Shown: positions 3,897 through 32,966 of the stretch, one piece after another
Numbering within the stretch: position 1 is the first letter of the stretch
Layout of the letters: each line of letters begins with the position of its first letter
Origin: Deltaproteobacteria bacterium
GTDB taxonomy: Bacteria > Desulfobacterota > Syntrophia > Syntrophales > UBA2192
Direction: 5' to 3'
DNA length: 42,616 nucleotides
NCBI GenBank assembly: GCA_012728915.1
Contig: JAAYEC010000040.1
Location: 1-42,616, forward strand
Notes under the pieces: generated by a model
Seen by the model: the letters and a program-made list of their open reading frames with translations, nothing else
What the model was told of the DNA's origin: nothing
The model's database searches: none
Made by a program: the position numbers and the translations under genes

Positions 3897-3945
3897 GTGA
3901 ACCTCCCTCCTCCGCCATATGACAAGGATGATATATGTCAGGCGT

Positions 3946-3974
3946 GGCATAGTCCATTTTGCCGTTTTTGTCAA
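3946..3974 (-). promoter_or_regulatory. Sigma70-type promoter of fdnGH
   Basis: TTGACA (3974-3969), a 17-base spacer and TATGCC (3951-3946) lie about 50 bases upstream of the fdnG start. A short inverted repeat TGACA...TGTCA (3920-3940) follows the -10 box and could be an operator. No experimental support; recognised by eye. Confidence 0.5.
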
Positions 3975-4267
3975 TCGAAATCCCGGGGCAAAAAGAGGGA
4001 AAACGAAGAACGAGAGACGTGACGAAACCCTTGCCTGGTCACGACTCATATTGAATTCGCACGCTTTAGAAAGTATGGGGAAACAAATGGAGCAAATGAT
4101 CACTGAGAAAGTGAAAGGCCGCGGGATGATGCATGGAGCCCGCTCCGGGCCGCATTGCGTCCTCGGCCGTTGCCGCGTCGTCAACAATTCGCCCATGCGT
4201 TCAATATGAAAATGGAGCTCAGAGGTCCGATCAAGCCACAACGAACACCCATCCGCCGAATCCGAGC
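3975..4267. other. Intergenic region between fdnG and the glucan synthase
   Basis: No credible gene is seen in this stretch. It is less GC-rich than its surroundings and contains a purine-rich run near 3988-4020. The short open frames here have no recognisable similarity or ribosome site. It separates two divergent transcription units. Confidence 0.5.
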
Positions 4268-4296: not shown

Positions 4297-4378
4297 ACGT
4301 TTTATGCTGAAATCATTGAAGAAAATCACCGTGCCGAAGAAATCGGTCCGGGGCCGAAGGGAGGTGACCTCTTTCCGA

Positions 4379-10300: not shown

Positions 10301-13108
10301 CTCCTGTCTATTACGGACATCGCCAACCTGGGTCTCGTCCGCAGCCTGGTGCAGGCCCACAGCTACTGGCGGCAGAAGGGGGTCGAGGCGGATCTGGTGA
10401 TCTGGTCCGAGGCCTATGCGGGCTACCGCCAGGATCTGCTCGACGCCATTATTGGCCTCGTGCAGGCAGGCACCGAAAGCAAGCTCCTCGACCAGCCTGG
10501 GGGTATCTTCGTGCGCAACATCGACCAGGTGCCCGAAGATGACCGGATCCTTTTCCAGGCCGTCGCCCGGCTCGTGTTCAGCGACCGATACGGGGCCCTG
10601 GAAGAACAAATCGACCGACGCGTCGTGCCCGAAGCGGACATTCCCGAACTGGCGTCCGAACGCCAACAGGAGACTTCCGAACCTCTGCCTTCCCTGACCT
10701 CCCGGGAATTGGAATTCTTCAACGGCCTCGGCGGATTCACCCGCGACGGTCGCGAGTACATCATCCAGTTGAAGCCCGGTCAGAGCACCCCCGCCCCCTG
10801 GGTCAATATCCTCGCCAATCCGTTTTTCGGAACCATCATCAGCGAGTCGGGCAGCGCATCGAGCTGGAGTGAAAATGCGCACCAGTTCCGCCTGACGCCG
10901 TGGCACAACGACCCCGTCGAAAATCCGAGCGGCGAAGCGTTTTATATCCGGGACGAGGAAACCGGCCTCTTCTGGTCCCCCATGCCCGCCCGCGCGTCCG
11001 CCGAGGCGTTCTGCGTCTGCCGACACGGGCACGGCTACACCGTCTTCGAACAGACTCATGCGGGGCTGTCCTCTGAAACAACCGTCTATGTTGCCATCGA
11101 CGACCCGCTCAAGTTCACGGCCATCACCCTGCGCAACACAACGGGCCGTACACGGCGCGTATCCATCACAGGCTACTGCGAATGGGTGCTGGGCGAGCAC
11201 CGCGACCACAGTGCGATGCACGTGGTCACACGTCTTGATCCACAAAGCGGCGCCATCTTCGCCCAGAACGCCTTCAGCCTGGATTTTGCCGACCGCATCG
11301 CTTTTTTTCATTGCAGCGGCGAGGATCGCACCCTGACCGCCGACCGCACTGAATTCATCGGCCGCAACGGCTCGCTCGCCGACCCCGCCGCGCTCCGGCG
11401 AGAACACCTTTCCAATCGCGTCGGCGCCGGGCTGGACCCCTGCGCCGCCATCCAAACCTGGTTTGAAATCCAGCCCGGCGACCAGATCCAGGTCGTGTTC
11501 TGTCTCGGGGCCGCGCAGACCGAGGACGAAGCTCGCGCCCGGCTCCGTCACCAGGCCGGCACGAGCGGCGCCCGCCAGGCGTTGGAGAAAGTGTGGGACT
11601 TTTGGCAGCGCCAACTCGGCGGCGTCTACGTCGAAACACCCGATGCCTCCGTCAATTTCCTCGTCAATCACTGGCTGCTCTATCAGATCCTCTCCTCGCG
11701 CTTCTGGGGACGCACCGGCTTCTACCAGTCCAGCGGCGCCTACGGTTTCCGCGACCAGTTGCAGGACTCCCTGGCTTTCCTCCGCGAATGCCCGTGGCTG
11801 ACACGCGAGCACCTGCTGCTGAGCGCCTCCCGCCAGTTTCAGGAGGGCGACGTGCAGCACTGGTGGCATCCGCCCGTCGGCCGTGGCGTGCGCACCCGCA
11901 TCTCCGACGACCTGCTCTGGCTGCCTTTAGTCCTGTGCCGCTATGTCGCCGTCACGGGCGACACAGGCATCCTTGATGAAACGCGCCCCTTTCTCGATAC
12001 CCGTCCTCCCGCGGAAAACGAGGAATCCGTCTATGACCTGCCCCGCGTTACCGAGGAAATTGCCTCGCTTTACGAACACGCCGCGCGGGCCATCCGCCAT
12101 GCCCTGCGCTTCGGCACTCACGGACTGCCCCTGATCGGCTCGGGTGACTGGAACGACGGCATGAACCGCGTCGGAAATGAAGGGCGCGGGGAAAGTGTCT
12201 GGCTGGGCTTTTTTCTGCTTCAGGTCCTGCGCGAGTTCGGCCCACTCGCCGCCCGCCACGGCGACAGACCATTCGCGGCCCTCTGTGAACAAGAAGCGCA
12301 AAAGCTGGCGGCCCGCATCGACCGTCATGCCTGGGACGGCCAATGGTATCTGCGCGCCTTCTTCGACGACGGGACCCCGCTTGGCTCCGCTCAAAACCCC
12401 GAATGTCAAATCGATTCCATCCCGCAAAGCTGGGCCGTACTGGGAGGCGCCACCGATCCCCAACGTGCCCGCACCGCCATGCAATCAGTACTGGACCGCC
12501 TTGTGGATCGCGAGCATCGCCTCGTCCGGCTCTTCGATCCGCCCTTTGACAGCGCGCCCTGGGATCCCGGCTATATCAAGGGCTATCTCCCCGGTGTGCG
12601 CGAAAACGGCGGACAGTACACCCATGCCGCGGTGTGGACCGCCATGGCCTTTGCGGCCCTTAGGCAGGGCGATGTCGCCTGGGAAATCTTCCAATACCTC
12701 AACCCTGTCCGCCACGGAGACACCCCGGAGCACGTCAGGACCTACAAATTGGAACCATACGTCCTCGCTGCCGATCTCTACACGATCAAGGGCCGCGAAG
12801 GCGAAGGCGGCTGGAGCTGGTACACGGGTTCCGCTGCCTGGCTCTACCGACTGCTCGTCAAAGACCTCCTCGGCATAGGCCTTGAAACCAATACCCTCTC
12901 CTTCAGCCCACTTATCCCCGCCGGCTGGACGGGGTTCAAGCTCACCTACCGCTACCGCAATACCTTTTACCACATCGAGTTTAAAAAAACGGGCGATGCA
13001 ACGTGGAACACCCGCCGGGTTTGGGTGGACGGTGTCGAGCAGCCCGATCGGAAAATCCATCTCGTGGACGACGGCCGCAAACGCCATGCCCTCGTCGAAC
13101 TCGGTTGA
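4379..13108 (+). CDS. ndvB: Cyclic beta-1,2-glucan synthase (NdvB/ChvB family)
   Basis: A very large inner-membrane enzyme (2909 residues from this start; ChvB/NdvB are about 2830-2870) that makes and cyclises beta-1,2-glucan from UDP-glucose. Visible modules in order: a soluble N-terminal region; membrane segments near residues 415-475; a GT84-type glycosyltransferase domain (about 490-800) with TLDTDTQLPPG and a RRHRWVRGDWQ motif; more membrane segments near 825-870 and 950-990; a glycoamylase-like cyclisation domain (about 1090-1490, WYNIPTLKPLHP and GISESGYNQLDSSQAY); two beta-rich GH94-associated domains; and a C-terminal GH94 phosphorylase module with GSGDWNDGMNRVG near 2585, which sets chain length in known homologues. 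The start at 4379 has a GGAGGTGA site; an in-frame ATG at 4304 is the alternative. It has its own promoter, and no export partner such as NdvA/ChvA is adjacent. It is flanked by gaps and a pseudogene, so acquisition by transfer is possible. Confidence 0.93.
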   Translation: MPWWARFRSRSDRTPFPELPGHEELTQRAELFGVIQLENHARFLASKHECESVRGSELLLRQLSKNEVGIRRCHRTIAESVRQRHRISPAAEWLLDNFHLIQEQIELAQAHLSPGYSRGLPRLTTGPRRGFPRIYDIVLEVVRHTDGQVGHENLSLFIRAYQETHPLTLGELWAVPIMLRLSLIEKLHLVTQRIAWRSSQRDEALHWADRFLKKVETNPRMFVTTLGDFVRAAPPLTSPFISELVANIDGVNPTLGLALNWLEQELSEHGQTIDLVLQNENQAQAADLVTISNCITSVRTMAAIDWADFVEAASVIEAVLRRDPAGVYPQMDFRTRNRYRTLVEKLARYGRKSEPDVAEAAVMLAAERRQANADRHESHVGYFLLDTGRSELETRIGCRLPLHRRFSRCLGRHPLAFYLTAAVVMTLVMAAVPAASLRGAGPGWAVTLWVAAALLVASRPAIALINWVSTLLVPSRFLPSVDFAKGIPPEHRTIVVVPTMLGSPTEGMHLLEDLEIRYLGNKSPNLLFALLTDFLDADAEELSNDRESVEATVKGIRRLNARHARKGDPIFFLLHRPRRWNPEERKWMGHERKRGKLEDFNRLVVEGRTEAFSVIEGDPELLRSVRYAITLDTDTQLPPGSAVQLAGAMAHLLNRPHLDSVRRMVTRGYAVLQPRIAVSLTSARQSLFALLLAGEVGIDPYTREVASVYPDFFGRGQFIGKGIYDIHTFHAATGGRFPDNLILSHDLIEGCHARCGFISNVELVENEPSRVVADTRRRHRWVRGDWQIAGWLFPRIPGPDGRRVRNPLDGLSRWMIFDNLRRSLVPAALFLTLVSAGYAWTASATGRIAVLLGVYFLPSALRTLRAFLLKGKPVPLPVHLRAVTAKEGRQWGLELLELAFTPYHGWVYLDAVVRVFWRMRSRRRLLEWKTASHSERTAGTSVGDVIREMWSAPALAAACAAPALAGIEPANPLLLALAGLWLVSPGIAWFVSRTRTPRVLPLDAVQAAFIRRLARRTWAYFDHFTGEASHWLPPDNFQEIPAPAVAPRTSPTNIGMGLVSGLAACDFGYLSPGRFLFHTARTMDTLERMERYRGHFYNWYNIPTLKPLHPLYISSVDSGNLAAMLIVVREGLREMMRGPFLPARWREGLEDAAGILLMEIESARKRPECPVSPDVFPAAADRIRERIEAVRAVPPSLRDIQRELETFRAGLEGLAGALAPDESLSFWCEALQRQCTDFVDEIRYFAPWTCAELPYSPAAEDAGADASLWKELQQETGTSLPLDALATLLRRWEPRLTQRPAGDPSQRWIEWLTLASSRASQRITELGAVAERCTEFSEYDLDFLYDADRHQLSIGYNLDAHSRDPGFYDLLASESRLGSYVGVARGQLPLEHWFHLGRRLAPGGGPPVLTSWSGSMFEYLMPMLVMPVYDGTLLDVTCRSAVHRQISYGRQTGVPWGISESGYNQLDSSQAYQYRAFGVPMLGMKRGLADDLVIAPYASALALMVEPVKAVRNLRRLVDAGAVGRFGLYEAVDHTPARVPAGEPFAIVRTWMAHHNGMCLLAFGHLLHGQPMQRRFMTDLRLKSAARLLQERVPLARPRIHPTVAMGETAGLPVGETFESISRSYDTPDTPVPDVHLLSNGRYHVMITNGGGGVSRWQGLNLTRWREDSAQDVHGFFFYLQEVGTGKTWSPTARPLVADFDRYEAVFAQGGAEFQSVSQQFQSQLKVVVCPEDDMELRQLTLTNLSRRARTIEITSYAEPVMLAGRAEAAHPAFHKLFVTASTVRDKAALLFTRRPSSAGEHPPWMFHFLGVAGGLILRGPSYETDRAAFIGRNRSVRNPAALDLPGPLPDRTGFTSDPAAAIRYRVRIEPGRSIQLNAFLGVAATREAAEIYVDRCRDPRMAERVFSLAWTRSQVFLHQLRIRETDAQNYARLAGSLFFAGPHRRGRASIIAANRKNQAALWSYGISGDRPIVLLSITDIANLGLVRSLVQAHSYWRQKGVEADLVIWSEAYAGYRQDLLDAIIGLVQAGTESKLLDQPGGIFVRNIDQVPEDDRILFQAVARLVFSDRYGALEEQIDRRVVPEADIPELASERQQETSEPLPSLTSRELEFFNGLGGFTRDGREYIIQLKPGQSTPAPWVNILANPFFGTIISESGSASSWSENAHQFRLTPWHNDPVENPSGEAFYIRDEETGLFWSPMPARASAEAFCVCRHGHGYTVFEQTHAGLSSETTVYVAIDDPLKFTAITLRNTTGRTRRVSITGYCEWVLGEHRDHSAMHVVTRLDPQSGAIFAQNAFSLDFADRIAFFHCSGEDRTLTADRTEFIGRNGSLADPAALRREHLSNRVGAGLDPCAAIQTWFEIQPGDQIQVVFCLGAAQTEDEARARLRHQAGTSGARQALEKVWDFWQRQLGGVYVETPDASVNFLVNHWLLYQILSSRFWGRTGFYQSSGAYGFRDQLQDSLAFLRECPWLTREHLLLSASRQFQEGDVQHWWHPPVGRGVRTRISDDLLWLPLVLCRYVAVTGDTGILDETRPFLDTRPPAENEESVYDLPRVTEEIASLYEHAARAIRHALRFGTHGLPLIGSGDWNDGMNRVGNEGRGESVWLGFFLLQVLREFGPLAARHGDRPFAALCEQEAQKLAARIDRHAWDGQWYLRAFFDDGTPLGSAQNPECQIDSIPQSWAVLGGATDPQRARTAMQSVLDRLVDREHRLVRLFDPPFDSAPWDPGYIKGYLPGVRENGGQYTHAAVWTAMAFAALRQGDVAWEIFQYLNPVRHGDTPEHVRTYKLEPYVLAADLYTIKGREGEGGWSWYTGSAAWLYRLLVKDLLGIGLETNTLSFSPLIPAGWTGFKLTYRYRNTFYHIEFKKTGDATWNTRRVWVDGVEQPDRKIHLVDDGRKRHALVELG

Positions 13109-13821
13109 AATCTTTCCGATGGCTCGATGCTACGGCTCGGGCCTCCACGCAAGATTCCCGGTCAAAAGGGCGTGTCCTGCACGGAGGAGGATTGGGTCGA
13201 TCAAGGAGCCACTGCCCACCCGAGGCCTGATGATTGGGTGATCAGAGGGCTGGACATGGCGAAAGAACACAAACGGTTGCCGGCCGGGATATCAGGCTCT
13301 ACCGCCATCTGGCCGACTTGTACCCGGTCTTCATTGACTCTGTCCGGCGCAAGGGAAACCCGCTCCCCGAGGTCAGAACGAGCTTCGAGAATGACTGCCC
13401 GGCCATAGGCCGGGTTCCGGATGTCTTGGTTGCAATCGAGAGAAGCGGTTTTCTCGCTCATCGGGCATTTCATCCTGCCGGACGAGGCTTGGTGGGGTGT
13501 TTTCTACGCATCGATGGAGATTCACATAGGGGAAGGGAGCCGAAAATAGGCGAACGATAACGAAGCGCTGGCCGTGCATGTTCCCCCCGCGCGGGAGCCC
13601 GGGATGCACCGGAAGTATTCAGGCTGCTGCGCTTACGAGTTCTTTGTGGTGCGCCGGAGGGGCTGAATGGACCGCTATCCCCGTGAGGTACGTTATAAGA
13701 ACTGTGGCCGTACACCCTGGGCGGAGAGGCATGCACGGAAAATGTATGGACGAGGGTCTACAGGTTTTCAGTTACCGCCGGGCAATGCTTTTTTAGCATA
13801 GTAACGTGTGCCCTGTCCGGG
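13109..13821. other. Gene-poor spacer after the glucan synthase
   Basis: Apart from the degraded methyltransferase fragment described separately, this 700-base stretch has no supported gene. Short open frames on both strands lack ribosome sites and recognisable sequence. A weak hairpin ATGCT/AGCAT around an A-run lies near 13787-13801 and does not look like a strong terminator. Confidence 0.5.
13234..13549 (+). pseudogene. Remnant of a class I SAM-dependent methyltransferase
   Basis: Reading from about 13360 gives LPEVRTSFENDCPAI, then VLVAIERSGF. After a one-base shift in the T-run at 13449-13452 the sequence continues as SLIGHFILPDEAWWGVFYA and ends at TAG 13547-13549. This resembles the C-terminal part of small SAM methyltransferases, where a YPAI-like segment, an 'AIE-x-GF' helix and a 'HF-LP-AWW--FY-PLE' segment occur in this order. 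The N-terminal Rossmann half with the SAM-binding glycine motif is not found upstream, so the gene is both truncated and frameshifted. The 5' boundary is uncertain. A single sequencing error could explain the shift but not the missing half. Confidence 0.55.
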
Positions 13822-14727
13822 TCAAAAGGTGTTCCATTCGCACCGGCACATGGGGGCGAACCCCCTTTCCTGCATGATCAGGTCGAGGTGCACGAGGCCC
13901 ATGGCCGTCACGTCGCGGTCGGTCTCGCCCAGGTCGCTCACGTGATTCAGGGTGATCAGGTAGCGCTTGCAGGAATCGCAGGTGAAGGCCGTCTCCTGCC
14001 GCCTGTCGTCCACGTAGAAGTAGTCGATCCCGCTGGGGCTTTCCAGTCCGCAGCCGGGGCAGATCATCCGGGTGAATCGCCACTCGTGGCCGCACCGCGA
14101 GCAGTGCAGCCAGCGCTCCGTGATCTTCTCGCGGATGACGGAGAGGGTCGGGCTGGCGCCGCAGATGGGGCAGGTCCCACGGTCCCAGCCCGTTTTTTCG
14201 ACGTCCCCGCCGATGCCGGCGGACCGGGCCCGGAGGATGATTCCCGCCACGGCGCCCAGCAGGAGCGCGACGGCCTGGGGCTTGATGTGCGTTTCCGCCG
14301 TCCATCGGTCGAGGGCCGCTCCCACGCTGTCCGGGTAGTCCGCAAAGGCATCGAAGAGCCGGATCTTGCCCGCCTCGATCGCCCCCGCGAGCGTCGCCGC
14401 GTCCTCCGCGAGAGCCGGAAACCCTTCCCGGACCGCCCCGGCCACCGCAAGGCCGACCGCTTTCCAGGGGTCGTCTTCGAAGAAGAAAGGAGTCTGTCCG
14501 ATGCAGGGGATTCCCCGGCGGAGTTTCTCCCCGTCGATCCTCGCGCGGTCCGCGGGCTTCAGCTTCAACTCCCCGATCAGGCGCTCCCGGACGACAAGGA
14601 GAGGCTTGAAGGCCGTGAGGAGTTCGCGGCTGTGCGGGTTCTTTCCGATGGCATCCTCGATCAGGCCCTCCACGCGGGACGGCTTGCGCTCCGTTTTCCT
14701 GGCCATGGGTTCGCTCCCGGCCGGCAT
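13822..14727 (-). CDS. fdhE: Formate dehydrogenase accessory protein FdhE
   Basis: FdhE is a rubredoxin-like cytoplasmic factor needed for maturation of formate dehydrogenases; it interacts with the catalytic subunit. The 301-residue protein shows the family's C-terminal set of four CxxC pairs: CPICG, CSRCGHEW, CPGCG and CDSC (roughly residues 190-270). The length matches the family. It begins 19 bases after the stop of the upstream selenocysteine fdhA on the same strand and is almost certainly co-transcribed with it. The ATG at 14727 has a GAGAGGG stretch upstream; an ATG seven codons later (14706) with GGGAG upstream is an equally possible start. It may also serve the fdnGH enzyme elsewhere in the window. 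Confidence 0.9.
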   Translation of the reverse strand: MPAGSEPMARKTERKPSRVEGLIEDAIGKNPHSRELLTAFKPLLVVRERLIGELKLKPADRARIDGEKLRRGIPCIGQTPFFFEDDPWKAVGLAVAGAVREGFPALAEDAATLAGAIEAGKIRLFDAFADYPDSVGAALDRWTAETHIKPQAVALLLGAVAGIILRARSAGIGGDVEKTGWDRGTCPICGASPTLSVIREKITERWLHCSRCGHEWRFTRMICPGCGLESPSGIDYFYVDDRRQETAFTCDSCKRYLITLNHVSDLGETDRDVTAMGLVHLDLIMQERGFAPMCRCEWNTF

Positions 14728-14746
14728 GATCCGGCCCTCTCTGATC

Positions 14747-17437
14747 TCACGCCCTCTCGATCCGCACGGCGCAGGCCTTGTACTCGGCCGTCAGCGAAAC
14801 CGGATCGAAGGCCGGATTCGTCAGCCAGTTGGCGCAGGCCTCGCGGAAGTGAAAGGCCATCCACACGACCCCCCTGGGGATGCGGTCCGACACGTTGGCC
14901 CTGACCTTCACTTCGCCCCGCCGCGAGGCGACCCGGATCATCTCGCCGTGCCCGATGCCGAGCTCCGCGGCGTCGAAGGGCGAGATGTCCGCCGTCTCCT
15001 CGCCCAGCAGGTCGTTGAGGCCGGCGGCGCGCCCCGTCTGGGTCCGTGTGTGGTAGTGGTAGAGCCTTCGCCCGGTGCTGAGCACGAGCGGGTAGTCGCT
15101 GTCGGGGACTTCCGCCGGCGGGGTCCAGTCCACGGGGGTCAGCGTTCCCATTCCGGCGGTAAAGCGGTGCTTGTGCAGGGTGGGTGTCCCGGGGTGCTCC
15201 TCGTTGGGGCAGGGCCACTGAAGTCCGTTGCCGCGGATACGGTTGTACTTGACCCCCGCCATCGAGGGGGCGAGCACGGAAACCTCGTTGTCCCAGATCT
15301 CGCGGGCACTCTTCGAGGGCCACTTGTGGCCCATCCGTCTGGCGATCTCCCGGAAGATCCACCAGTTCGGCTTTGCCTCCCCGGGCGGGGGGCTCGCGGT
15401 CCGGACCCGGCTGATGCGGCGCTCGCTGTTGGAGAACGTGCCGTCATTTTCGCTCCAGGCGGCGGCGGGAAAGATCACGTGGGCAAACCGCGTTGTCTCC
15501 GTCGGGAAGATGTCGTTGCAGACGATGAACTCGGCCGATGCCAGGCAATGCTCGACGTGCCGGATGTCCGGTTCCGTGTTGGCCAGGTTCTCGCCGAAGA
15601 TGTAGAATGCCTTGACCTTGCCGTTCCCGAGGCCGTCGATCATCTGGGGAATCATCAGACCCGGCTTGTCCGGCAGGGACGTCACGCCCCAGGCCTTCTC
15701 GAACTTGGCCCGCACCTCGGCGTTGTCGACACGCTGGTAGCCCGGGAACACGTTCGGCAGGGCTCCCATGTCGCAGGCCCCCTGCACGTTGTTCTGCCCC
15801 CTGAGGGGATTGACGCCGCCGCACTCGAAACCGACGTTCCCGAGGAGCATCTGGAGGTTCGCGCAGGACAGGACGTTGTTCACCCCGCTGGTGTGCTCGG
15901 TGATGCCGAGCGTGTACATCAGCATGGCGGGCTTGACCGATGCCAGGCGCCGGGCCAGGGTCCGGATCGTCTCCGCGTCCACCCCGCTGATCTCGGCCGC
16001 CCGCTCGGGCGGATAGTCGAGAACCTTGGCCTTGAGTTCCTCAAAGCCGTTGCATCGGGACTGCACGTACTCCCTGTCGTAGAGGCCTTCCGTGATGAGG
16101 ACGTTCATGAGGCCGTTGAGGAAGGCCACGTCGCTTCCCACCCGGATGGGGAGGTGCATCTCCGCCATGTCGGCCAGCGCCGTCCGGCGGGGGTCCGCGA
16201 CGAACAGCGCGGCCCCGGCCAATACGGCCTGCTTCACGAAGGAGGCCGCCACGGGGTGCGCCTCGGTCATGTTGGAACCGATCACGAAGATCATCCTGGC
16301 CTTCGCGAAATCGGCGAAGGAATTCGTCATGGCGCCCGAACCGAAGGATTTCGCCAGACCGGCGACGGTGGGGGCGTGTCAGGTCCGCGCGCAGTGATCG
16401 ATGTTGTTCGTCTTGAACACCGCCCGGAAGAGTTTTTGCATCTGGTAGGAGTCCTCGTTGATGCTGCGGGCGCAGCTGACGCCGGCCACGGCGTCCGGGC
16501 CGTCCCTGTCGATGATCTCCTTGAACTTCGCCGTGACGAGGTCGAGCGCCTCGTCCCAGGAGGCCTCCCGGAACCGGCCGTTTTCACGGATCAGCGGCGT
16601 CTTGAGCCGATCCTCCGAGTAGAGGAAGTCATAACCGAAGCGGCCCTTCACGCAGAGCCGCCCGTCGTTGGGGGCGGCGCCCTCGACGGCGGTGACCTTC
16701 ACGATCCGGTCCTCCTTGACGTGCAGCCACATCTGGCAGCCGACGCCGCAGTAGGGGCAGGTCGTCCGGATCCGCTTCGTCTCCCAGGGCCGGCCCTGTC
16801 CCCTGAGTTTTTTCTCCGTCAGGGCCCCCGTGGGGCAGACCTCCACGCACTGGCCGCAAAAGACGCAGTCGCTTTCGTGGTAGGGCCTGTCGCCGCCCGT
16901 GACGATCTTGCTGTCCTTGCCCCGGTAGCCCTGGCTGATGGCCCGGTTTACGACGATCTGGTTGCAGGCCTGCACGCAGCGGCCGCAGAGGATGCAGCGG
17001 CTGAAGTCGCGGACGATGAAGGGGTTTTCCTGCTCGGTGGGATAGATGTGCTCGCTGCGGGGAAAGGAGCTCCCGTCCACGCCGTACCGGTAGGCCAGTT
17101 CCTGGAGCCCGCAGTCCCCGTTGGCCTCGCACAGGATGCAGTCATGGCGTCCCGCCGCCAGGAGCAGCTCCGTGTTCAGCTTGCGGGCCTGGTGAACCCG
17201 CGGGGTGTCCGTGAAGACCTCCATCGCCGGCGCAACCGGGGTGGAGCAGGCGGCCATCAGCGATCGGGCGCCCGTGACCTCGACCAGGCAGATCCGGCAG
17301 GCGCCTGACGGCGCAAGACCCTTCAGGTAGCAGAGGGTCGGGATCTCGACTCCGTTGTCGCGGGCCGCATCGAGGATGGATTGTCCCAGTTTGAACGGGA
17401 CCGATCTGCCGTTCAAAATGAAGGTTGCACCGGACAT
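14747..17437 (-). CDS. fdhA: Formate dehydrogenase catalytic subunit, NuoG-like N-terminus, selenocysteine-containing
   Basis: A cytoplasmic-type formate dehydrogenase of 896 residues when the in-frame TGA (16381-16379, codon 353, context DHCART-U-HAPTVAGLAKSFG) is read as selenocysteine. Domains in order: a [2Fe-2S] ferredoxin domain (C36, C47, C50, C64); a His-Cys cluster site (H98, C100, C103, C109); two [4Fe-4S] motifs (C148-C158 and C191-C201); a molybdopterin-oxidoreductase [4Fe-4S] motif CPYCGVGC at 227-234; and the large Mo/W-pterin domain. There is no signal peptide. The start at 17437 is chosen for an AAAGGAG site seven bases upstream; the frame extends 14 codons further without such a site. 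This architecture normally pairs with NuoE/NuoF-like or HydB-like subunits for NAD or ferredoxin coupling, but none is adjacent; only fdhE follows. The electron partner is therefore unknown. Confidence 0.94.
16351..16381 (-). promoter_or_regulatory. Selenocysteine codon and SECIS hairpin of fdhA
   Basis: The TGA at 16381-16379 is followed after 13 bases by a hairpin with arms TCGCC (16365-16361) and GGCGA (16355-16351) and the loop GGTCT. GGUCU is the same apical loop as in the well-studied E. coli fdhF SECIS. This strongly supports readthrough as selenocysteine. Confidence 0.85.
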
Positions 17438-17515
17438 GACAGACTCCTTTGTCGACGGATTGTATTCCCGGGGGTTCACGGCATGATGATATCAAAAGTG
17501 GCATATGCCGAAAAT

Positions 17516-20786: not shown

Positions 20787-21889
20787 GGTCCGCCGTGAAT
20801 GCGCTGCTGCTCCTGGCGGTCTTCTGCCTCGCAGAGCCGGCCCTTGCCGCCGCCCCGGGGGACAGGACCGTTCAGGACATGGCGGGCCGGCCGGTACGGG
20901 TGCCCGCGAGCGTGAACCGGATCGTCGCGATTGGTCCGGGGGCCCTGCGGCTTGTCGTCTACCTGGACGCCTTCGACCGGGTCGTCGGCGTGGAGGAGGC
21001 GGAGAAAGGCCGCTTTCCCCTTGCGGCCCGGCCCTACGGGCTGGCCGTCCGGGAGCGTATCATGGCCCTGCCTTCCGTCGGGGAGGGCGGCGCGGGCCGG
21101 AATCCGGACCCCGAGAGGGTCCTCGCCCTCAGGCCGGATCTGATCGTGGGCATCGGGCTCGATCCGGCGCAGGTCTCGGCACTCGAGTCCAAGGCGGGGA
21201 TCCCGGTGCTCGTGCTGGACTATGGCGAGATCGGGGTCTTCCGGGAGGAGGCCCTGAAGTCCATTGCGCTGCTGGGCCGGGTTACGGGGCGGGATCGGAG
21301 GGCCGGCGAGATCCTTCGGTTTATCCAGGCCTGCCGGGCGGATCTCGGGCGCAGGACCGCGGGCATCGAAATCCCGGGGAAACGGCGTGCCTATGTCGGG
21401 GGGATCGGCCACAAGGGCCGGCACGGGCTCCTGAGCACCGAGGCCGGTTTCCTGCCCCTGGCCCTGGCGGGCGCGAGGAACGTGGCCGACGAAACGGGCC
21501 GCGAGGGGCACCTCTTCATCGATCGGGAGCAGATCCTCGCCTGGAGCCCCGAGGTGATCTTCATCGACGCAAACGGCCTCGATCTCGTCGCGGCGGACTA
21601 TGCCGCCCGCCCCGCTTTTTACGAGGCCCTTGACGCAGTCAGGCAGGGGCGGGTGTACAGCCTCTACCCCTACAACTTCTACGGCACGAACATCGAGATC
21701 GCCCTCGCCGATGCCTACTTCATCGGCAAAATCCTCTACCCCGGGGCGTTCCGGGATGTGGACCCCGTGAAGAAGGCGGAGGAGATCGTCCGGTTCTTTG
21801 TCGGGCAGCCCGTTTTCGACGGGATGAAAGAGGCCTACCGCGGGTTCGGCAGGGTGTTCTTCGAGGGGGGACGAATGGATGTCCGGTAA
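20783..21889 (+). CDS. ABC transporter substrate-binding protein (Fec/Btu-type)
   Basis: A 368-residue periplasmic binding protein with an N-terminal signal peptide (about 1-22, ending ALAA) and the two-lobed helical-backbone fold of the cobalamin/ferrisiderophore class: 'RIVAIGPGALRLV' near residue 50, 'LRPDLIVGIG' near 118 and 'WSPEVIFIDANGLDL' near 255. It overlaps the ATPase upstream by four bases and the permease downstream by eleven, so the importer is one coupled unit. The substrate cannot be read from sequence. Nickel or cobalt is favoured by NikR and CooC; iron chelates or molybdate/tungstate (the MolABC precedent in this ABC class) are alternatives. Confidence 0.85.
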   Translation: MRSAVNALLLLAVFCLAEPALAAAPGDRTVQDMAGRPVRVPASVNRIVAIGPGALRLVVYLDAFDRVVGVEEAEKGRFPLAARPYGLAVRERIMALPSVGEGGAGRNPDPERVLALRPDLIVGIGLDPAQVSALESKAGIPVLVLDYGEIGVFREEALKSIALLGRVTGRDRRAGEILRFIQACRADLGRRTAGIEIPGKRRAYVGGIGHKGRHGLLSTEAGFLPLALAGARNVADETGREGHLFIDREQILAWSPEVIFIDANGLDLVAADYAARPAFYEALDAVRQGRVYSLYPYNFYGTNIEIALADAYFIGKILYPGAFRDVDPVKKAEEIVRFFVGQPVFDGMKEAYRGFGRVFFEGGRMDVR

Positions 21890-22937
21890 CGCCGCAGGCA
21901 TCGCGACAGGATACGGCGCCCTGCTGGGGCACAAGGCCGCCGTCGCGGGCGTGCTCCTGGCCGCCGTCGTTCTCCTTGCGCTTGCCGCTCTTGCCGTGGG
22001 GTCCTACCCCCTCTCCCCGGGGGATGTCCTGGCGGCGCTCGCGGGAAGGGCCGACGGGGTGACGGCCCACATCATCGGAAACATCCGCCTTCCCCGGGCC
22101 GTGGCGGCCGTCGTCGCGGGGGCCTCCCTCGGTATTGCCGGTGCCGTGATGCAGAACGTGATCCGCAACCCGCTCGCCTCCCCGTTCACCCTGGGCGTCT
22201 CCCAGGGGGCCGCCTTCGGCGCCGCCCTTGCGATCGTCTCGCTCGGCGGCAGCGCGGCAAAGGGCCTCGCCACGACGATGCAGGCGTGGCTCACGGCCCT
22301 GTCGGCCTTCGCCGGGGCGTTGGCCACCGTTGCGGCCATCCTGATGCTGTCCGCCCTGCGGCGTCTCGCGCCGGCCACGCTGATCCTCGCCGGCGTGGCC
22401 ATGAGCGCCCTGTTCGGCGCGGCAACCATGTTTCTGCAGTACTTCTCGACGGATTCGCAGCTGGCGGCAACCGTCTTCTGGACTTTCGGCGATCTCGGGC
22501 GCGCGGGCTGGAGGGACATCCTCCTGATGACGGCGGCTCTCGCGCCGGCGCTGGCCTACTTTCTGTGGAACAGCTGGGGCTACAATGCCCTGGAGTGGGG
22601 AGACGAGACGGCGGGCGGGCTCGGCGTCTCCGTCGGACGCCTCCGCCTGGGGAGCCTCGCGGCATCGGCCCTCGTGGCCGCCGTCACCGTCGCCTGCCTG
22701 GGGGTCATCGGGTTCGTGGGGCTCGTGGCGCCCCACATCATGCGGTTCTTCGTGGGCGACGACCACCGCTTCCTTCTTCCCTGCTCGGCGCTGTGCGGCT
22801 CGATGCTTCTGCTTGCCGCCGACATCCTGTCGCGGCTTCTCCTGGCGCCGGTCGTCGTGCCCGTGGGGATCGTGACGACCTTTGCCGGGGCCCCGCTGCT
22901 GCTCTACCTCCTGATGAAGGGGCGCAAGGTGCCATGA
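21879..22937 (+). CDS. ABC transporter permease (FecCD/BtuC family)
   Basis: A 352-residue integral membrane protein with the ten-helix BtuC/FecCD pattern: a first helix at about 18-40, the family signature 'GNIRLPRAVAAVVAGASLGIAGAV' region (about 67-92), NPLASPFTLGVSQGAAFGA at about 98-116, and 'GFVGLVAPHIMRF' near 278-290. It forms the channel of the importer with the neighbouring binding protein and ATPase. It starts within the end of the binding-protein gene and its stop overlaps the ATPase start by four bases. Confidence 0.93.
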   Translation: MSGNAAGIATGYGALLGHKAAVAGVLLAAVVLLALAALAVGSYPLSPGDVLAALAGRADGVTAHIIGNIRLPRAVAAVVAGASLGIAGAVMQNVIRNPLASPFTLGVSQGAAFGAALAIVSLGGSAAKGLATTMQAWLTALSAFAGALATVAAILMLSALRRLAPATLILAGVAMSALFGAATMFLQYFSTDSQLAATVFWTFGDLGRAGWRDILLMTAALAPALAYFLWNSWGYNALEWGDETAGGLGVSVGRLRLGSLAASALVAAVTVACLGVIGFVGLVAPHIMRFFVGDDHRFLLPCSALCGSMLLLAADILSRLLLAPVVVPVGIVTTFAGAPLLLYLLMKGRKVP

Positions 22938-23728
22938 CGCTCGAGATCGAAGGAATCCGCTTTTCCTACGGCAGGACGCCCGTGCTCAGGCAGGTGAGCC
23001 TCCGGGCCGAGCCCGGCCAACTCGTCGCCATCCTGGGCGAAAACGGCTCGGGCAAGTCGACGCTTCTGCGGGCGATCCATCGACTCCTCGTCCCCCAGGG
23101 GGGGACCGTCCTGGTCGAGGGGCGCGCCGTGGATCGCATGAGCCCGCGTCAGATCGCCCGCCTCATGGGCTATCTGCCCCAGAAATCCTCCGAGGCGTCC
23201 TTTTCGGTCTTCGACGCCGTCCTGCTGGGCAGGGCGCCGCACCTGCAGTGGGGCGTCTCGGATCGCGACAGGGAGGTGGTCCTGCGGGTCCTGGCCCTCC
23301 TGGGCCTGGAGGCACAGGCCCTGAGGAGCGTCCTCGAGCTTTCCGGTGGGGAGGTGCAGAAGGTCTTCATCGCCAGGGCGCTCGCCCAGGAGCCGAAGGT
23401 CCTGCTTCTCGACGAGCCGATCAACCACCTCGACGTGAAGAACCAGATCGACGTCATGGGGCTCCTCCGGAGGGTGACGGCGGAGCTCTCCATCGTCTCC
23501 CTCGTCGTCCTGCACGACATCAACAACGCCCTGCGCTTTGCGGACCGCTTCCTCCTGATCAAGTCGGGGGAGATCGTCGCGTTCGGCGGGCAGGAGGTCG
23601 TCACCCCCGCCAATGTACGGACACTCTACAACCTGGACGTCACGGTGGCCCGGGTCGACGGGATTCCCGTGGTCGTCCCGCGGGGAAACGGCAAGGCCGA
23701 CGCCCCTCCGGCGATAAGGATCGAGTGA
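22934..23728 (+). CDS. ABC transporter ATP-binding protein (FepC/BtuD-type)
   Basis: A 264-residue ATPase with Walker A GENGSGKST (35-43), Q-loop near YLPQKSSEASF, signature LSGGE, Walker B VLLLDEPINHLD and the switch histidine in VLHDINN. All catalytic elements are intact. The start at 22934 (ATGA overlap with the permease stop) gives the normal N-terminus MTLEIEGIRFSYG; the open frame continues upstream inside the permease gene but is not the real start. It ends the cooC-importer operon. Confidence 0.93.
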   Translation: MTLEIEGIRFSYGRTPVLRQVSLRAEPGQLVAILGENGSGKSTLLRAIHRLLVPQGGTVLVEGRAVDRMSPRQIARLMGYLPQKSSEASFSVFDAVLLGRAPHLQWGVSDRDREVVLRVLALLGLEAQALRSVLELSGGEVQKVFIARALAQEPKVLLLDEPINHLDVKNQIDVMGLLRRVTAELSIVSLVVLHDINNALRFADRFLLIKSGEIVAFGGQEVVTPANVRTLYNLDVTVARVDGIPVVVPRGNGKADAPPAIRIE

Positions 23729-26860: not shown

Positions 26861-27607
26861 ATGCTTGAAACGGACGAGATTGCAGGCCGGCTTTACCGGC
26901 AGCTTGCGGAAAAGGGCCGACACATTGCCGTCGAGGACGTCCGGATCGGCGCAAGCTACGTCGCCGTCGTCCTGGCCGGGGGCCGTACGGGGCTTGCCGC
27001 CAGGCTGAAGGAGGCCGTCGGGGCGGAGATCGAGCCCCGCAGGGATGGAAGGCGGTTCACCGGCGGGGGCTCGGACAGACTGCTCGATTTTCTCGTCCGG
27101 CGGGCGGGAGTTGTCGAGCGTGCCCTGGGGCTGGCGGCGGCCAACGCCCTGATTCACCCGACGCCGCCCGGGGTTGAAGCGGACACGATCGATCTCATGG
27201 GCCTTCGCGCCGGCGAGCGGGTCGCCATGGTGGGCCTCTTCCGGCCCATCGTCCCGCGGATCGAGGCCGCCGGGGTGCAGCTCACCGTCATCGAGCGCGA
27301 CACGCCGGAGAGCGAAAGGAGGCGGGCGCTCGGGAGCTGCGAGGTGGCCATCGTCACGGCAACGACGATCCTCAACGGGACCCTCGAGGGGATCCTCAAC
27401 GAATTGGGCCGGCCCCGGCACGTGGCCCTCATCGGGCCGTCGACGCCTCTGTGCGAGGCGATCTTCCGGGACACGCCGGTGACGCACCTCGGCGGTTCCG
27501 CCGTTGCGGATACGGCGCGAATCCTCGAGGTCATCGCCCGGGGAGGCGGGACGCCCCAGATGAGGCCCTGGCTGCGGTTCGTGAACATCAGGGTGAACCG
27601 GTCATGA
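26861..27607 (+). CDS. DUF364-family putative metal-chelation protein
   Basis: A 248-residue protein of the DUF4213/DUF364 type, described as putative heavy-metal chelation proteins and often found near metal or molybdenum genes. An N-terminal domain (about 1-85) precedes a Rossmann-like C-terminal half with 'VAMVGLFRPIVPRI' (118-131), 'LTVIERDTPE' and 'VALIGPSTPL'. Its activity is unknown. It overlaps mobB by four bases (ATGA), which links it to molybdopterin cofactor assembly for the formate dehydrogenases in this window. It may be translated from a leaderless mRNA. Confidence 0.78.
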   Translation: MLETDEIAGRLYRQLAEKGRHIAVEDVRIGASYVAVVLAGGRTGLAARLKEAVGAEIEPRRDGRRFTGGGSDRLLDFLVRRAGVVERALGLAAANALIHPTPPGVEADTIDLMGLRAGERVAMVGLFRPIVPRIEAAGVQLTVIERDTPESERRRALGSCEVAIVTATTILNGTLEGILNELGRPRHVALIGPSTPLCEAIFRDTPVTHLGGSAVADTARILEVIARGGGTPQMRPWLRFVNIRVNRS

Positions 27608-28482: not shown

Positions 28483-29454
28483 ATGAACGGAGAAAAACGG
28501 CCGGAAGGCGCATACGACGTCCTCATCATCGGCGGGGGGCCCGCGGGGCTCACGGCCGGGCTCTACGCGGCCAGGGCGAACTTCAGGACGCTGCTCGTCG
28601 AGTCCGGGATGGTCATGAGCCAGATCACGGTGACGCATCTCGTGGAGAACTACCCGGGCGTGCCGGACATAGGCGGGTACGATCTCGTGGAGAAGTTCAA
28701 GGAGCAGGCGAAGAAATTCGGTCTCCAGGGGGCCTATGCCGCCGTTGCGGGCCTGGAGAAGGCGACCCTCTCCGGGATGCCGGGCTGGAAGGTGAAGACC
28801 GACGCGGGCGATTTCGAGGCCCTCTCCGTCATCGTGGCCACCGGGGCCAACTGGCGCAAGATCGGCGTCCCCGGCGAGGCCGAGTTCACGGGCCGGGGCG
28901 TCTCCTACTGCGCCACCTGTGACGGGCCCTTCTTCCGCGAGCGGGAGGTCGTCGTCATCGGCGGCGGAGACACGGCCGTCCAGGAGGCCCTCTTCCTGAC
29001 GAATTTCGCGAGCAAGGTGACGATCGTCCACCGCCGTGACCGTCTGCGCGCCACGCCGCTGCTGCGCGAGCGGGCCGCCTCGAACCCGAAGATCGCCTTC
29101 GCCTGGGATTCCATCGTGACGGAGATCGGCGGCAAGGAGGCGGTCACGCACGTGAGGGTTGCAAACGTGAAGGAGCCGGAAGAAACCCGGGAGATTCCCG
29201 CGGACGGCGTATTCGTCTTCATCGGGCTCGTTCCGAACACGGGGTTCCTCGAGGGGGCCGTGAAACTCGGCAGGGACGGCTACATCGTGGCGGACCGGGA
29301 CATGAAGACCTCCGCGCCGGGGATCTTCGCCTGCGGCGACTGCATCGAAAAGCTCCTGCGGCAGGTCGTGACGGCCTGCGGCGACGGTGCCACGGCGGCC
29401 TTCTCGGCGCAGCTCTACGTTGAAGACCTAAAAGGCACAGGGTATCCAAGATAG
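28483..29454 (+). CDS. trxB: Thioredoxin-disulfide reductase
   Basis: A 323-residue flavoprotein that reduces thioredoxin with NAD(P)H. It shows the FAD motif IIGGGPAGLTAGLYAA (15-30), the redox-active C143-AT-C146-DG, the nucleotide motif VIGGGDTAVQEA, and the C-terminal FAD motif PGIFACGDC. The length is normal. It begins a run of thiol-redox genes that includes the selenocysteine flavoprotein 1 kb downstream. It follows the small membrane protein by 13 bases with an AGGAAGAGGGGG-rich ribosome site. Confidence 0.93.
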   Translation: MNGEKRPEGAYDVLIIGGGPAGLTAGLYAARANFRTLLVESGMVMSQITVTHLVENYPGVPDIGGYDLVEKFKEQAKKFGLQGAYAAVAGLEKATLSGMPGWKVKTDAGDFEALSVIVATGANWRKIGVPGEAEFTGRGVSYCATCDGPFFREREVVVIGGGDTAVQEALFLTNFASKVTIVHRRDRLRATPLLRERAASNPKIAFAWDSIVTEIGGKEAVTHVRVANVKEPEETREIPADGVFVFIGLVPNTGFLEGAVKLGRDGYIVADRDMKTSAPGIFACGDCIEKLLRQVVTACGDGATAAFSAQLYVEDLKGTGYPR

Positions 29455-29598: not shown

Positions 29599-30438
29599 GT
29601 GAGTGACTTTCTAAACAGCTGGCAGCACCTGCCCGCGAAGATCAGCCCGGCCCTCTTCGAGATCGGCTCCTTCCAGGTGCGCTGGTACAGTCTCATGTAC
29701 ATCGTGGCCTTCGCCCTGACGTACCTGCTGATCGTCTACCGGCTGCGCACGGAGAAATTCCGCTATACGCGGGAGCAGATCCAGGATTTCATGGTCTGGG
29801 GCATTCTGGGACTGATCCTGGGAGGGCGCCTCGGGTATGTGATCTTTTACAACCTCGGCTATTTCATCCGGCATCCGCTGGAGATCATTTTGCCCTTTTC
29901 CTTCGCCAACGGTGTCAAGTTCGTCGGCATCAGCGGCATGTCCTTCCACGGCGGGCTCATCGGCATCGTCGTCGCCTCGGGCATTTACTGCTACGTCCAG
30001 CGGGTCCGCTTCTGGGATCTCGCGGACCTGCTGATCCCCTGCGTGCCCCTCGGGTACACCTTCGGGCGGATCGGCAACTTCGTCAACGGCGAGCTCTGGG
30101 GCCGGGCAACGACCGTCCCCTGGGGGATGTACTTTCCCCTCGACCCCACGCGGACGCTGCGCCACCCCTCCCAGCTCTACGAGGCCTTCTTCGAGGGACT
30201 GTTTCTCTTTGCGGTCCTCTGGGGCATCCGCCGGAAGCGGCCCTTCGAGGGCGCGTTCCTCGCCTACTACCTGATCGGCTACGGCGCCGTCCGTTTCTTC
30301 ATCGAGTACGTCCGGGAGCCCGATGCGCACATCGGCCTGTACTTCGGGCTCATCACGATCGGCCAGATCCTCTGCCTGGCCATGATCCTCGCGGGTGCGG
30401 GTCTCTACCTCTACCTGCAATCCAAGGCCGGACGATAG
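29599..30438 (+). CDS. lgt: Prolipoprotein diacylglyceryl transferase
   Basis: A 279-residue inner-membrane enzyme that transfers diacylglycerol from phosphatidylglycerol to the lipobox cysteine of prolipoproteins. Family motifs are intact: SFHGGLIG (H117) and GRIGNFVNGE (156-165), with about seven membrane helices. The start is a GTG at 29599, preceded by AGGGG; the next Met codons would cut the first helix. It is a housekeeping gene, probably co-transcribed with neighbours on the plus strand. Confidence 0.94.
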   Translation: MSDFLNSWQHLPAKISPALFEIGSFQVRWYSLMYIVAFALTYLLIVYRLRTEKFRYTREQIQDFMVWGILGLILGGRLGYVIFYNLGYFIRHPLEIILPFSFANGVKFVGISGMSFHGGLIGIVVASGIYCYVQRVRFWDLADLLIPCVPLGYTFGRIGNFVNGELWGRATTVPWGMYFPLDPTRTLRHPSQLYEAFFEGLFLFAVLWGIRRKRPFEGAFLAYYLIGYGAVRFFIEYVREPDAHIGLYFGLITIGQILCLAMILAGAGLYLYLQSKAGR

Positions 30439-30491
30439 CCGTTCGGCCGCGATGCCCGGACCCGCCGGCGACAAACAGGGAGGAAAGCACA

Positions 30492-31835
30492 ATGGGAAAG
30501 AACGTCGTCATCGTCGGAGGAGCGGCGGGCGGTCCCTCGGCCGCCGCCGAGGCGAGGAGGCAGGACCCGTCGCTGTCGATTCGGATCATCGAACAGGGCG
30601 AGCACGTCTCCTTTGCGGCCTGACCCACTCCCTATTACATCGGGGATGTAATCAAGGACGAAAAGAGGCTTATCGCAAGGACCCCGGAGAAATTCGCCGA
30701 ATCGGGAGTGGAGGTGCGCCTTCGAACCCGGGTCGAGGCGATCGACGCCTCCGCCGGCGCCGTCCGGCTCTCCGGCGGCACCACGCTTCCGTACGACGTG
30801 CTCGTCATCGCCACGGGGAGCAGGCCCATGATGCCGGGGATCCCGGGGGAGACGCTCGACGGCGTCTTCACCTTGAAAAACCTCTCCGACGCGATCCGGA
30901 TCAAGGCGTACATCCGCGATCGGCACTGCCGCCGGGCGGTGATCCTCGGCGCCGGCTACATCGCCATGGAAATGAGCGAGTCGTTGAGGCGCATCGGGCT
31001 GCAGACGACGGTCGTCTACCGCGGTACGCTTCCGGCGAAAAAGTGGGATGGGGAGTTCTCGAAGCTCATCCTGGAGGAGATCACGCAACACGGCGTGGAG
31101 TTCATCCCCGGTATGAAGCCCGTGGCAATCGAGAAAGGGCGGGAAGGCTCCCTGCGGCTCCTGACGGACGGCCCTGTCATCGAGACGGACCTCGTCCTCA
31201 TGGGGCTGGGCGTGACCCCCGAGGTGGAGCTGGCCAAGTCCGCCGGATGCGCCATCGGCGGGGGCACGGGGGCCGTGCAGGTCGATTTCACCCAGGAGAC
31301 GTCCCGAGAGGGGATCTGGTCGGCGGGGGACTGCTGCGAGGTATTCCACCGGGTGAGCCGCCGATGGACGTCCATTCCACTCGGCGACATTGCGAACAAG
31401 CAGGGCCGCATTGCGGGCATCAACATCGGCGGACGCCCCGCGCGCTTCGAGGGGGTCGTGGGGGCCACGTCCTTCAAGGTTTTCGATCTGGAGGTGGCCG
31501 CCTGCGGTCTCGGCGAAAAGGAGGCCCTGGAAAGCGGTTTCAGCCCGGAGAGCGTCCTCGTGTGGGGCACATCAACGGCGAGGTCCATGGGAGGGCCGAG
31601 GTTGGGTCTCAAGCTGGTGGCCGACCGGTCCACGGGGAGGCTCCTGGGAGCCCAGGCCGCGGGCCGGGGCGGGGCCGTCAGGAAGATCGACGTGCTTTCC
31701 GCCTGCCTCTGGAACGAGGCCGACCTCGACGGGCTCGCCTACCTGGACCTTGCCTATGCGCCTCCCTTCGGCGGTGCGTGGGATCTGATCCACATCGGCG
31801 CCCAGGAGCTGCTCCGCAAAATCGTCTCTTCCTGA
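30492..31835 (+). CDS. CoA-disulfide reductase / NADH oxidase-like flavoprotein with selenocysteine at the active site
   Basis: Reading the in-frame TGA at 30621-30623 as selenocysteine gives a continuous 447-residue pyridine nucleotide-disulfide oxidoreductase. It has an N-terminal FAD motif VVIVGGAAGGPSAAAEAR, the active-site segment SFAA-U-PTPYYIGDVI with U at residue 44, the NAD(P)H motif VILGAGYIAMEMSES, and the C-terminal dimerisation domain. In CoA-disulfide reductases and NADH oxidases this position is the single redox cysteine (SFANC-x-PYYIG). A perfect SECIS-like hairpin follows. The natural substrate could be CoA-disulfide, a persulfide or oxygen; this cannot be told from sequence. 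Neighbours trxB, cutA and sod support a redox or stress role. Automated annotation would call only the part after 30708 or a pseudogene. Confidence 0.88.
30621..30652 (+). promoter_or_regulatory. Selenocysteine codon and SECIS hairpin of the flavoprotein gene
   Basis: The TGA at 30621-30623 is followed after 10 bases by ATTACAT (30634-30640), loop CGGGG and ATGTAAT (30646-30652), a perfect 7-base stem with a G-rich loop. In E. coli fdhF the minimal functional stem-loop starts about 11 bases after the UGA, so the spacing fits well. Confidence 0.85.
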
Positions 31836-31928: not shown

Positions 31929-32249
31929 ATGGCCGAATACATTCAGGTCATGACGACGACGGCGACACGGGAAGACGCCGCCAGGATCGCGGCGGTCTTG
32001 CTGGAAAACCGGCTGGCGGCCTGCGTCCAGGTCATGGGGCCCATCGAGAGCCACTACCGGTGGAAGGGGACCCTGGAGCGGTCGTCGGAGTGGCTCTGCC
32101 TCGTCAAGACGACCCGCGGGAACTATCGGGCCGTCGAAGAGGCGATCCACGCCAACCATTCCTACGAGGTGCCCGAGGTCATCGCCTGTCCCATCGAGTC
32201 CGGCAGCGAGGCCTACCTGGCCTGGCTTCGTGCCGAGACGGAGGGGTGA
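31929..32249 (+). CDS. cutA: Divalent-cation tolerance protein CutA
   Basis: A 106-residue trimeric CutA1-family protein. The typical features are present: 'VMTTTATREDAARIAAVLLE', RLAACVQV near residue 32, 'ESHYRWKG' near 45 and the 'SYEVPEVIACPI' segment near 81-92. The family is associated with copper and divalent-metal tolerance, but its molecular role is not settled. It lies 93 bases after the selenoprotein gene and 102 bases before the superoxide dismutase on the same strand. Confidence 0.93.
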   Translation: MAEYIQVMTTTATREDAARIAAVLLENRLAACVQVMGPIESHYRWKGTLERSSEWLCLVKTTRGNYRAVEEAIHANHSYEVPEVIACPIESGSEAYLAWLRAETEG

Positions 32250-32351: not shown

Positions 32352-32966
32352 ATGGGAACCACGAATCTTTACTCACTGCCCAAGCTGGGATTCGGGTACA
32401 AGGACCTCGAACCCTTCATTTCCGAGGAACAGCTGCGGCTCCACCACGAGAAGCATCATGCGGCCTACGTGACGGGGGCCAACGGCCTGCTCGAGCGGAT
32501 TGAGAAGGCGCGGAGGGAAAAGGCCGACCTCGACATGAAGGCGACCCTGAAGGATCTCTCGTTTCATCTGGGCGGACACGTTCTGCACTCGCTGTTCTGG
32601 GCGAACCTGGCCCCGAAGGGCAAGGCGGCGGACAGGCCCGCGGGGCTCCTGGCCACGGCCATCGACAAGGAGTTCGGCGGCTACGAGCAGTTCAGGAAGG
32701 AGTTCACCCAGGCGGCCGTGAGCGCCGAGGGCTCGGGCTGGGCGGCGCTGAGCCACTGCACCCTGACGAACCGTCCGGTCATCATGCAGATCGAGAAGCA
32801 CAACGTCAACGTCTACCCCGGGCTTCGAATCCTCCTGGTCCTGGATGTCTGGGAGCATGCCTACTACGTGGACTACAGGAATCTCCGCGCGAAGTTCGTC
32901 GAGGCCTTCTGGAACATCGTGAACTGGGATGAGGCGAGCCGCCGGTTCGAGGATTCCCTGAAGTAA
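32352..32966 (+). CDS. sodB: Superoxide dismutase (Fe/Mn family)
   Basis: A 204-residue Fe/Mn superoxide dismutase. Metal ligands are visible: H31 ([12 protein letters not shown]), the histidine in [10 protein letters not shown] (about 81), and the aspartate and histidine of DVWEHAYY (about 165-169). The VLHSLFW form resembles archaeal and anaerobe-type enzymes; the choice of Fe or Mn cannot be read reliably. No signal peptide is seen, so it is cytoplasmic. A GGAAAGGG site precedes the ATG. A possible promoter (TTGCAA, 18 bases, TAGAAA) lies in the 100-base gap after cutA. Confidence 0.94.

Follow-up and report, generated by a model that had tools for sequence, protein, structure and literature searches.

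A candidate selenocysteine-containing flavoenzyme of the CoA-disulfide reductase fold, with its SECIS element, in Syntrophales

Selenocysteine in the CoA-disulfide reductase family

Selenocysteine (Sec) was reported in the CoA-disulfide reductase (CoADR) family in 2006 for a Geobacter metallireducens ‘NADH oxidase’ (PMC1794560), and a Sec member was encountered once in the GOS survey (PMC2398784). Reviews of 2022 and 2026 list an ‘FAD-dependent oxidoreductase (CoA-disulfide reductase)’ with the motif UGxP (PMC9312934, PMC13188914), and the Geobacter metallireducens selenoprotein is carried as a predicted, uncharacterised one (WP_011365774.1, COG0446/TIGR03385; PMC1794560, PMC9312934, PMC13188914). 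The principle of Sec in a CoADR-fold enzyme is already known, and the statement in an initial annotation of the present DNA that Sec members have been reported is confirmed by these sources. Here we describe a gene of this kind in a 42,616 nucleotide contig of a Deltaproteobacteria bacterium of the order Syntrophales; this whole stretch of DNA is referred to as the window.

In the window protein, as in Geobacter metallireducens WP_011365774.1, Sec takes the place of the only active-site Cys in a flavoenzyme of CoADR fold. Whereas the published entry has the motif UGxP, the window protein has UPTP, with Pro at +1 in 57/57 rows of its clade (clade A), and it differs further from the Geobacter protein in falling in a separate branch (99% SH-aLRT), in loss of the Tyr361 position and in carrying Y/H-R-G where the NAD ribose binds. 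In the UGxP-type clade B, to which the Geobacter protein may belong, the SECIS is placed differently from that of clade A. With the CoADRs of S. aureus (1yqz), T. thermophilus (6ruz) and P. horikoshii (4fx9) the window protein shares the fold, the FAD and NAD(P) domains, a single catalytic chalcogen residue, the Tyr419 equivalent (Y422) and the lack of a rhodanese domain, but it has Sec for Cys, no Tyr361 and a score under the TIGR03385 cut-off. The NADH-dependent persulfide reductase Npsr (S. loihica 3ntd, A. fulgidus 6pfz) and CoAPR (E. faecalis 8a56) resemble the window protein in fold and in the place of the catalytic residue (Npsr C43); unlike these, the window protein is without a C-terminal rhodanese domain, carries Sec and probably prefers NADPH over NADH. 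Type III sulfide:quinone reductase (NF049943, COG1252) is likewise an FAD-dependent selenoprotein (PMC13188914), but belongs to another family and has the Sec motif HxxU. No entry for a UPxP or UExP motif was present in the text of the two selenoprotein reviews or the deep-Sep paper. The clade A branch, its motif, cofactor-site changes, order-wide spread and SECIS, and the pairs of Sec and Cys copies, appear not to have been described previously.

The UGA codon and its SECIS hairpin

The features of the gene, all on the plus strand, are as follows.

30492 to 31835, plus strand: candidate selenoprotein gene for an FAD/NAD(P) flavoenzyme of predicted CoADR/Npsr fold; 447 residues, ATG start, UGA stop at 31833-31835
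30478 to 30484, plus strand: Shine-Dalgarno-like sequence GGGAGGA, 7 nt 5' of the ATG
30621 to 30623, plus strand: putative UGA Sec codon (residue 44), where the family has its only catalytic Cys (from alignment and codon comparison)
30634 to 30652, plus strand: bacterial SECIS hairpin, stem 30634-30641 / 30645-30652 (8 bp), loop GGG at 30642-30644 (from folding and comparison)
30708 to 31835, plus strand: decoy ORF of 375 aa with a GTG start, the expected report of a caller that treats TGA as a stop

Translation of 30492-31835 gave a single internal TGA (30621-30623) and a frame open on either side of it, as had been claimed, with residue 44 of the window protein in the context ...HVSFAA-U-PTPYYIGDVIKD.... 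The initial annotation placed this TGA at the family’s single active-site cysteine. In the alignment with 3nt6, titled in the PDB as the C43S/C531S mutant of Npsr, residue 44 lies opposite the mutated Ser, and since this is the Cys43 position of Shewanella Npsr the TGA falls exactly at the catalytic cysteine, in agreement with that placement. The domains Pyr_redox_2, Pyr_redox and Pyr_redox_dim were detected in the window protein. The 375-aa ORF from 30708 is missing the active site as well as the N-terminal part that binds FAD. A sequencing error at 30621, raised earlier as a possible source of the TGA, is very unlikely because many independently assembled genomes have TGA at codon 44, among them that of the closest relative, L009 (86% identity). 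C281, in the conserved GDCCE, was weighed as a further redox residue but rejected, since Cys stands there in 32/35 other family members too.

The clade A SECIS consists of an 8-bp stem, AUUACAUC-GGN-GAUGUAAU, located 10 nt downstream of the UGA. An earlier proposal of a 7-base hairpin starting 11 bases past the TGA was correct as to its existence and its first paired base, which is the 11th, but the stem is slightly larger, at 8 bp. Folded alone, the sequence from the window has an unremarkable energy (z = -1.26), and a search of the window against Rfam at the gathering threshold gave no match. Because the single-sequence folding energy is not significant, the case for the SECIS was built on comparison.

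The first homolog set comprised 80 relatives from GTDB genomes, nearly all of them Syntrophales, Smithella or ‘Deltaproteobacteria’ MAGs, in which codon 44 was TGA in 62, TGT or TGC in 17 and not covered in one. The stem had all eight of its pairs in 62/62 TGA genes but in 0/17 Cys genes (Fisher p about 1e-17). Six patterns served for retrieval; one spans GDVIKDEK, and its degenerate back-translation imposed no codon choice; the enlarged set was drawn from searches other than those retrieval patterns. Among the distinct clade A sequences of this second set, codon 44 was TGA in 73 and TGC or TGT in 23, with no other residue, and the stem was intact in 73/73 TGA genes versus 2/23 Cys genes, the other 21 Cys genes having 4-7 stem pairs left. 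One of the two Cys genes with an intact stem, L200, owes its pairing to G-U and has the look of a recent replacement.

Covariation was analysed in 89 distinct SECIS of clade A and its sister clade C. Compensatory change on both sides was found at two pairs (9 cells), a level equalled in 0/500 shuffles, and pairing of the same sequences dropped to 14-68% in slid registers; these 89 had been preselected for 8/8 pairs, so that their 100% of paired cells is not informative. Before selection, 8/8 pairs were present in 110/113 Sec sequences from these two clades and 7/8 in the other three (L163, L176, L179). Codon usage follows the stem: the valine codon of GDV was GTA in 61/62 Sec genes versus 191/1856 Val codons elsewhere in these genes (about 10%), and third codon positions of Sec genes were most strongly frozen inside the stem but variable outside it and in Cys genes. 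Sec coding, the active-site position of Sec44 and the conservation of the SECIS are demonstrated here at the level of comparative sequence analysis, and it is well supported that the window gene encodes a selenoprotein read through at UGA 30621-30623.

The genome of origin (2.79 Mb, 81 contigs, completeness 100) contains all four components of the Sec machinery for which the initial annotation had proposed a search, namely selA on C7 (609 bits), selB on C71 (369.8 bits, cut-off 242), selD on C79 (384.7 bits, the gene itself with one TGA) and a tRNA-Sec (selC) on C30 with anticodon TCA. Use of Sec in two formate dehydrogenases, claimed previously from the window sequence, was corroborated for the following genes.

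831 to 4241, minus strand: Sec formate dehydrogenase-N alpha subunit (TIGR01553, 1410 bits; U311 of the translated stretch)
13796 to 17479, minus strand: formate dehydrogenase alpha subunit with a NuoG-like N-terminus, TGA read through (TIGR01591, 818 bits)

A second Sec CoADR-like paralogue (L090, G000:C13:52615-53979) is found in the same genome; it belongs to clade B, has the motif USIP, keeps YYP and has a SECIS register different from that of the window gene.

Distribution of Sec and Cys forms

The family was matched at E <= 1e-60 in 135/149 sampled genomes and 51/53 genera of the order, not all of these matches being clade A. As ordinary gene finders are likely to call the gene truncated, this selenoflavoenzyme, present in most sampled genera of the order, may have been largely overlooked. 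A quick IQ-TREE tree of 119 rows, with SH-aLRT support only, recovered clade A (57 rows, 45 Sec and 12 Cys; support 100; motif U-P-[MTIL]-P-YYIGD) and clade C (Sec in all 12 rows; UETP, UELP, UDLP, USEP and ULMP as motifs) in one branch with a support of 99, in which 57 of the 69 tree rows are Sec. Clade B (15 rows, 11 Sec; motifs UGIP, USIP, UAVP and others) sits among Cys families. Its SECIS, exemplified by L090, is CGUCGGCA-AGGU-UGUCGACG with a stem that starts 14 nt past the UGA; 7-8 of 8 pairs are retained in every Sec member, versus 3-6 in Cys members. This different register favours separate acquisition of Sec in clade B and in clades A and C, or complete rebuilding of the SECIS. Two SECIS placements in one codon stretch of paralogous clades, together with the weakened remnants in Cys genes, provide a rare view of the gain and loss of Sec.

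The Sec or Cys label requires 18 changes on the tree, at least 13 of these being forced by starred branches, a count that is blind to gain versus loss. Only directly read codons were counted because the automated count of in-frame TGA takes in the terminal stop; G026, for example, shows one TGA, yet its gene L206 has TGT at the site. Four lone Sec members within Cys clades (L180, L184, L185 and L186, with UGIP, UGMPYN, UGIPYL and UGVP, respectively) have other downstream hairpins and are possible further separate gains of Sec.

Four genomes (G003, G014, G020 and G037) each have one Sec and one Cys copy of clade A, as read directly from the codons (L200-L203 with L220-L223), and these pairs could possibly act as a selenium-supply switch. 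Sec and Cys orthologs have 50-60% identity, and with both copies in the same four genomes the advantage of selenium over sulfur in a flavoenzyme with one chalcogen can be put to a direct test.

Fold, cofactor site and candidate reaction

A CoADR/Npsr fold is predicted for the window protein by an AF2 model (pLDDT 94, pTM 0.90), for which the top solved structure was the T. thermophilus CoADR 6ruz (Z 49.7, rmsd 2.0, 434 aligned, 43% identity), with P. horikoshii CoADR, A. fulgidus Npsr and B. anthracis CoADR as the other best matches; structures of water-forming Nox and of Npx also matched, at lower identity. Alignment of the 447-residue product with CoADRs, suggested earlier as a check, was obtained with phmmer, which matched it along its length to CoADR and Npsr structures. 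The TIGR03385 CoADR model scored 353.3 bits over the full length, under its equivalog cut-off of 578.8, and each of the 25 top-ranked NCBIfam models listed stayed below its own cut-off for the window protein. Two tyrosines of S. aureus CoADR are the subject of mutant structures (Y361F and Y419F, from PDB titles). The Tyr419 equivalent is Tyr in 57/57 clade A rows, whereas the Tyr361 equivalent, in a column placed with the help of YYP in L090, spaced 58 residues from the second Tyr, is S/A/P/V/T/N in 57/57. Given the absence of a Tyr361 equivalent throughout clade A and the missed TIGR03385 cut-off, CoA-disulfide may not be the substrate of the window enzyme. The initial label of ‘CoA-disulfide reductase/NADH oxidase-like’ holds for fold and superfamily, the closest structures being CoADR and Npsr, but is not established as to substrate, as both the TIGR03385 and Nox cut-offs were missed and the Tyr361 equivalent is gone.

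At the NAD-ribose site the window protein has Y-R-G instead of an acidic residue. Positions 176-178 are mostly Y/H-R-G in clade A (177 basic in 47/57, 176 acidic in 10/57), and the residue that closes the second NAD-domain strand is in most cases Tyr/His, with Arg/Lys next to it, in clades A and C but mostly Glu in clade B and others. E183 of AfNpsr disfavours NADPH (PMC7969121), and TPNOX, an engineered NADPH oxidase of the same fold, carries D177A and A178R (PDB title). By analogy with these two cases we infer a preference for NADPH in clades A and C; use of NADPH by the window enzyme itself is somewhat favoured on this analogy, and its use may not be uniform across clade A, in view of the 10/57 members with an acidic residue at 176. 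A domain search of the 447-aa protein gave no rhodanese match. The genome had no match to PF02955 or PF04262, the two models searched for glutathione synthetase and glutamate-cysteine ligase, so classical glutathione synthesis is doubtful; matches to BshA were below cut-off only, probably to other glycosyltransferases, and this candidate was rejected.

Genes adjoining the candidate are listed below.

28483 to 29454, plus strand: trxB, thioredoxin-disulfide reductase, upstream of lgt in 49/79 clade A loci
29599 to 30438, plus strand: lgt, prolipoprotein diacylglyceryl transferase, the upstream neighbour in 51/79 clade A loci
31929 to 32249, plus strand: cutA-like gene, downstream, in 24/79 clade A loci
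32352 to 32966, plus strand: Fe/Mn superoxide dismutase-like gene, downstream, common only to the closest relative, L009

The order trxB-lgt-gene is kept in 49-51/79 clade A loci, many of the others being cut by contig ends, and it accompanies Sec and Cys forms alike; lgt was upstream of 0/28 genes of clade B and other groups, in a sample with some genomes entered twice. TerC follows in 18 of the 79 loci. A C_GCAxxG_C_C putative redox protein is directly upstream in 16 loci (e.g. L021 5282-5953) and absent from the window. An antisense neighbour cluster in 34-36 loci was read as shadow ORFs of trxB/lgt and discarded. As a functional clue the trxB-lgt neighbourhood is suggestive only.

The structural, cofactor-site and glutathione-gene evidence, together with the lack of a rhodanese domain, favours an NAD(P)H-dependent reductase of small disulfides or per/polysulfides, and SECIS-directed insertion of Sec giving a single-chalcogen FAD enzyme of CoADR/Npsr type with this activity is the explanation we hold to be quite likely overall. 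SelB and tRNA-Sec, guided by the hairpin 10 nt downstream, would place selenocysteine at UGA 30621-30623. In a cycle modelled on that published for CoADR and Npsr (PMC7969121, PMC9405070), NAD(P)H, probably NADPH, would reduce FAD, and the reduced flavin would in turn reduce an oxidized Sec44 on its si-face. As a selenolate, Sec44 would then attack a small CoA- or cysteine-linked substrate, either a disulfide or a per/polysulfide, and set free a thiol or H2S. The Se-S or Se-SH bond left behind would be reduced anew by FADH2. Disulfide or persulfide as the substrate class is, by analogy, a reasonable expectation rather than a firm one, and a role in thiol homeostasis near TrxB is conceivable but somewhat doubtful.

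An NAD(P)H peroxidase or oxidase, in which Sec44 would clear H2O2 or O2 via a selenenic acid (Se-OH), would accord with the fold held in common with NADH peroxidase/oxidase, with the suitability of Sec for peroxide chemistry and with a superoxide dismutase gene as second downstream neighbour in the window. This reading is unlikely, as that neighbour is common only to L009, the NOXase_Strep model scored 203 bits against a cut-off of 600, and the GGxAGG loop has Ala12 in 55/57 clade A rows, apparently in place of the catalytic His10/11 that Npx and Nox have in the GxGxxG region. Reduction of a protein partner (a thioredoxin-like or C_GCAxxG_C_C redox protein) instead of a small molecule is equally improbable: while the trxB-lgt synteny and the 16 loci with an upstream C_GCAxxG_C_C protein would fit, the window has no such neighbour, and the CoADR-type active site is built at the dimer interface and fits small substrates. 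That the TGA is an ordinary stop, making the gene a pseudogene or one restarted at GTG 30708, agrees with the 375-aa ORF that gene callers would give but is extremely improbable, given the intact SECIS in 62/62 and 73/73 TGA genes, Cys as the sole alternative at codon 44, the complete Sec machinery and a shortened product without FAD motif or active site.

With the small disulfide or per/polysulfide reductase as the preferred reading, clades A and C might tentatively be viewed as a separate family that lost the Tyr361 function, works with NADPH and a selenolate on some substrate that is not CoA-disulfide, gained Sec apart from clade B and, with Sec ancestral, replaced it repeatedly by Cys; we consider this broader scenario slightly less likely than its negation.

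Elsewhere in the window, a 2934-aa open frame (4304-13108, plus strand) without an NCBIfam match is either a giant protein or a shadow frame, and a DUF4213/DUF364 putative heavy-metal chelation protein (26861-27607, plus strand) adjoins mobB and a BtuC/Fec-type ABC transporter (21879-23728).
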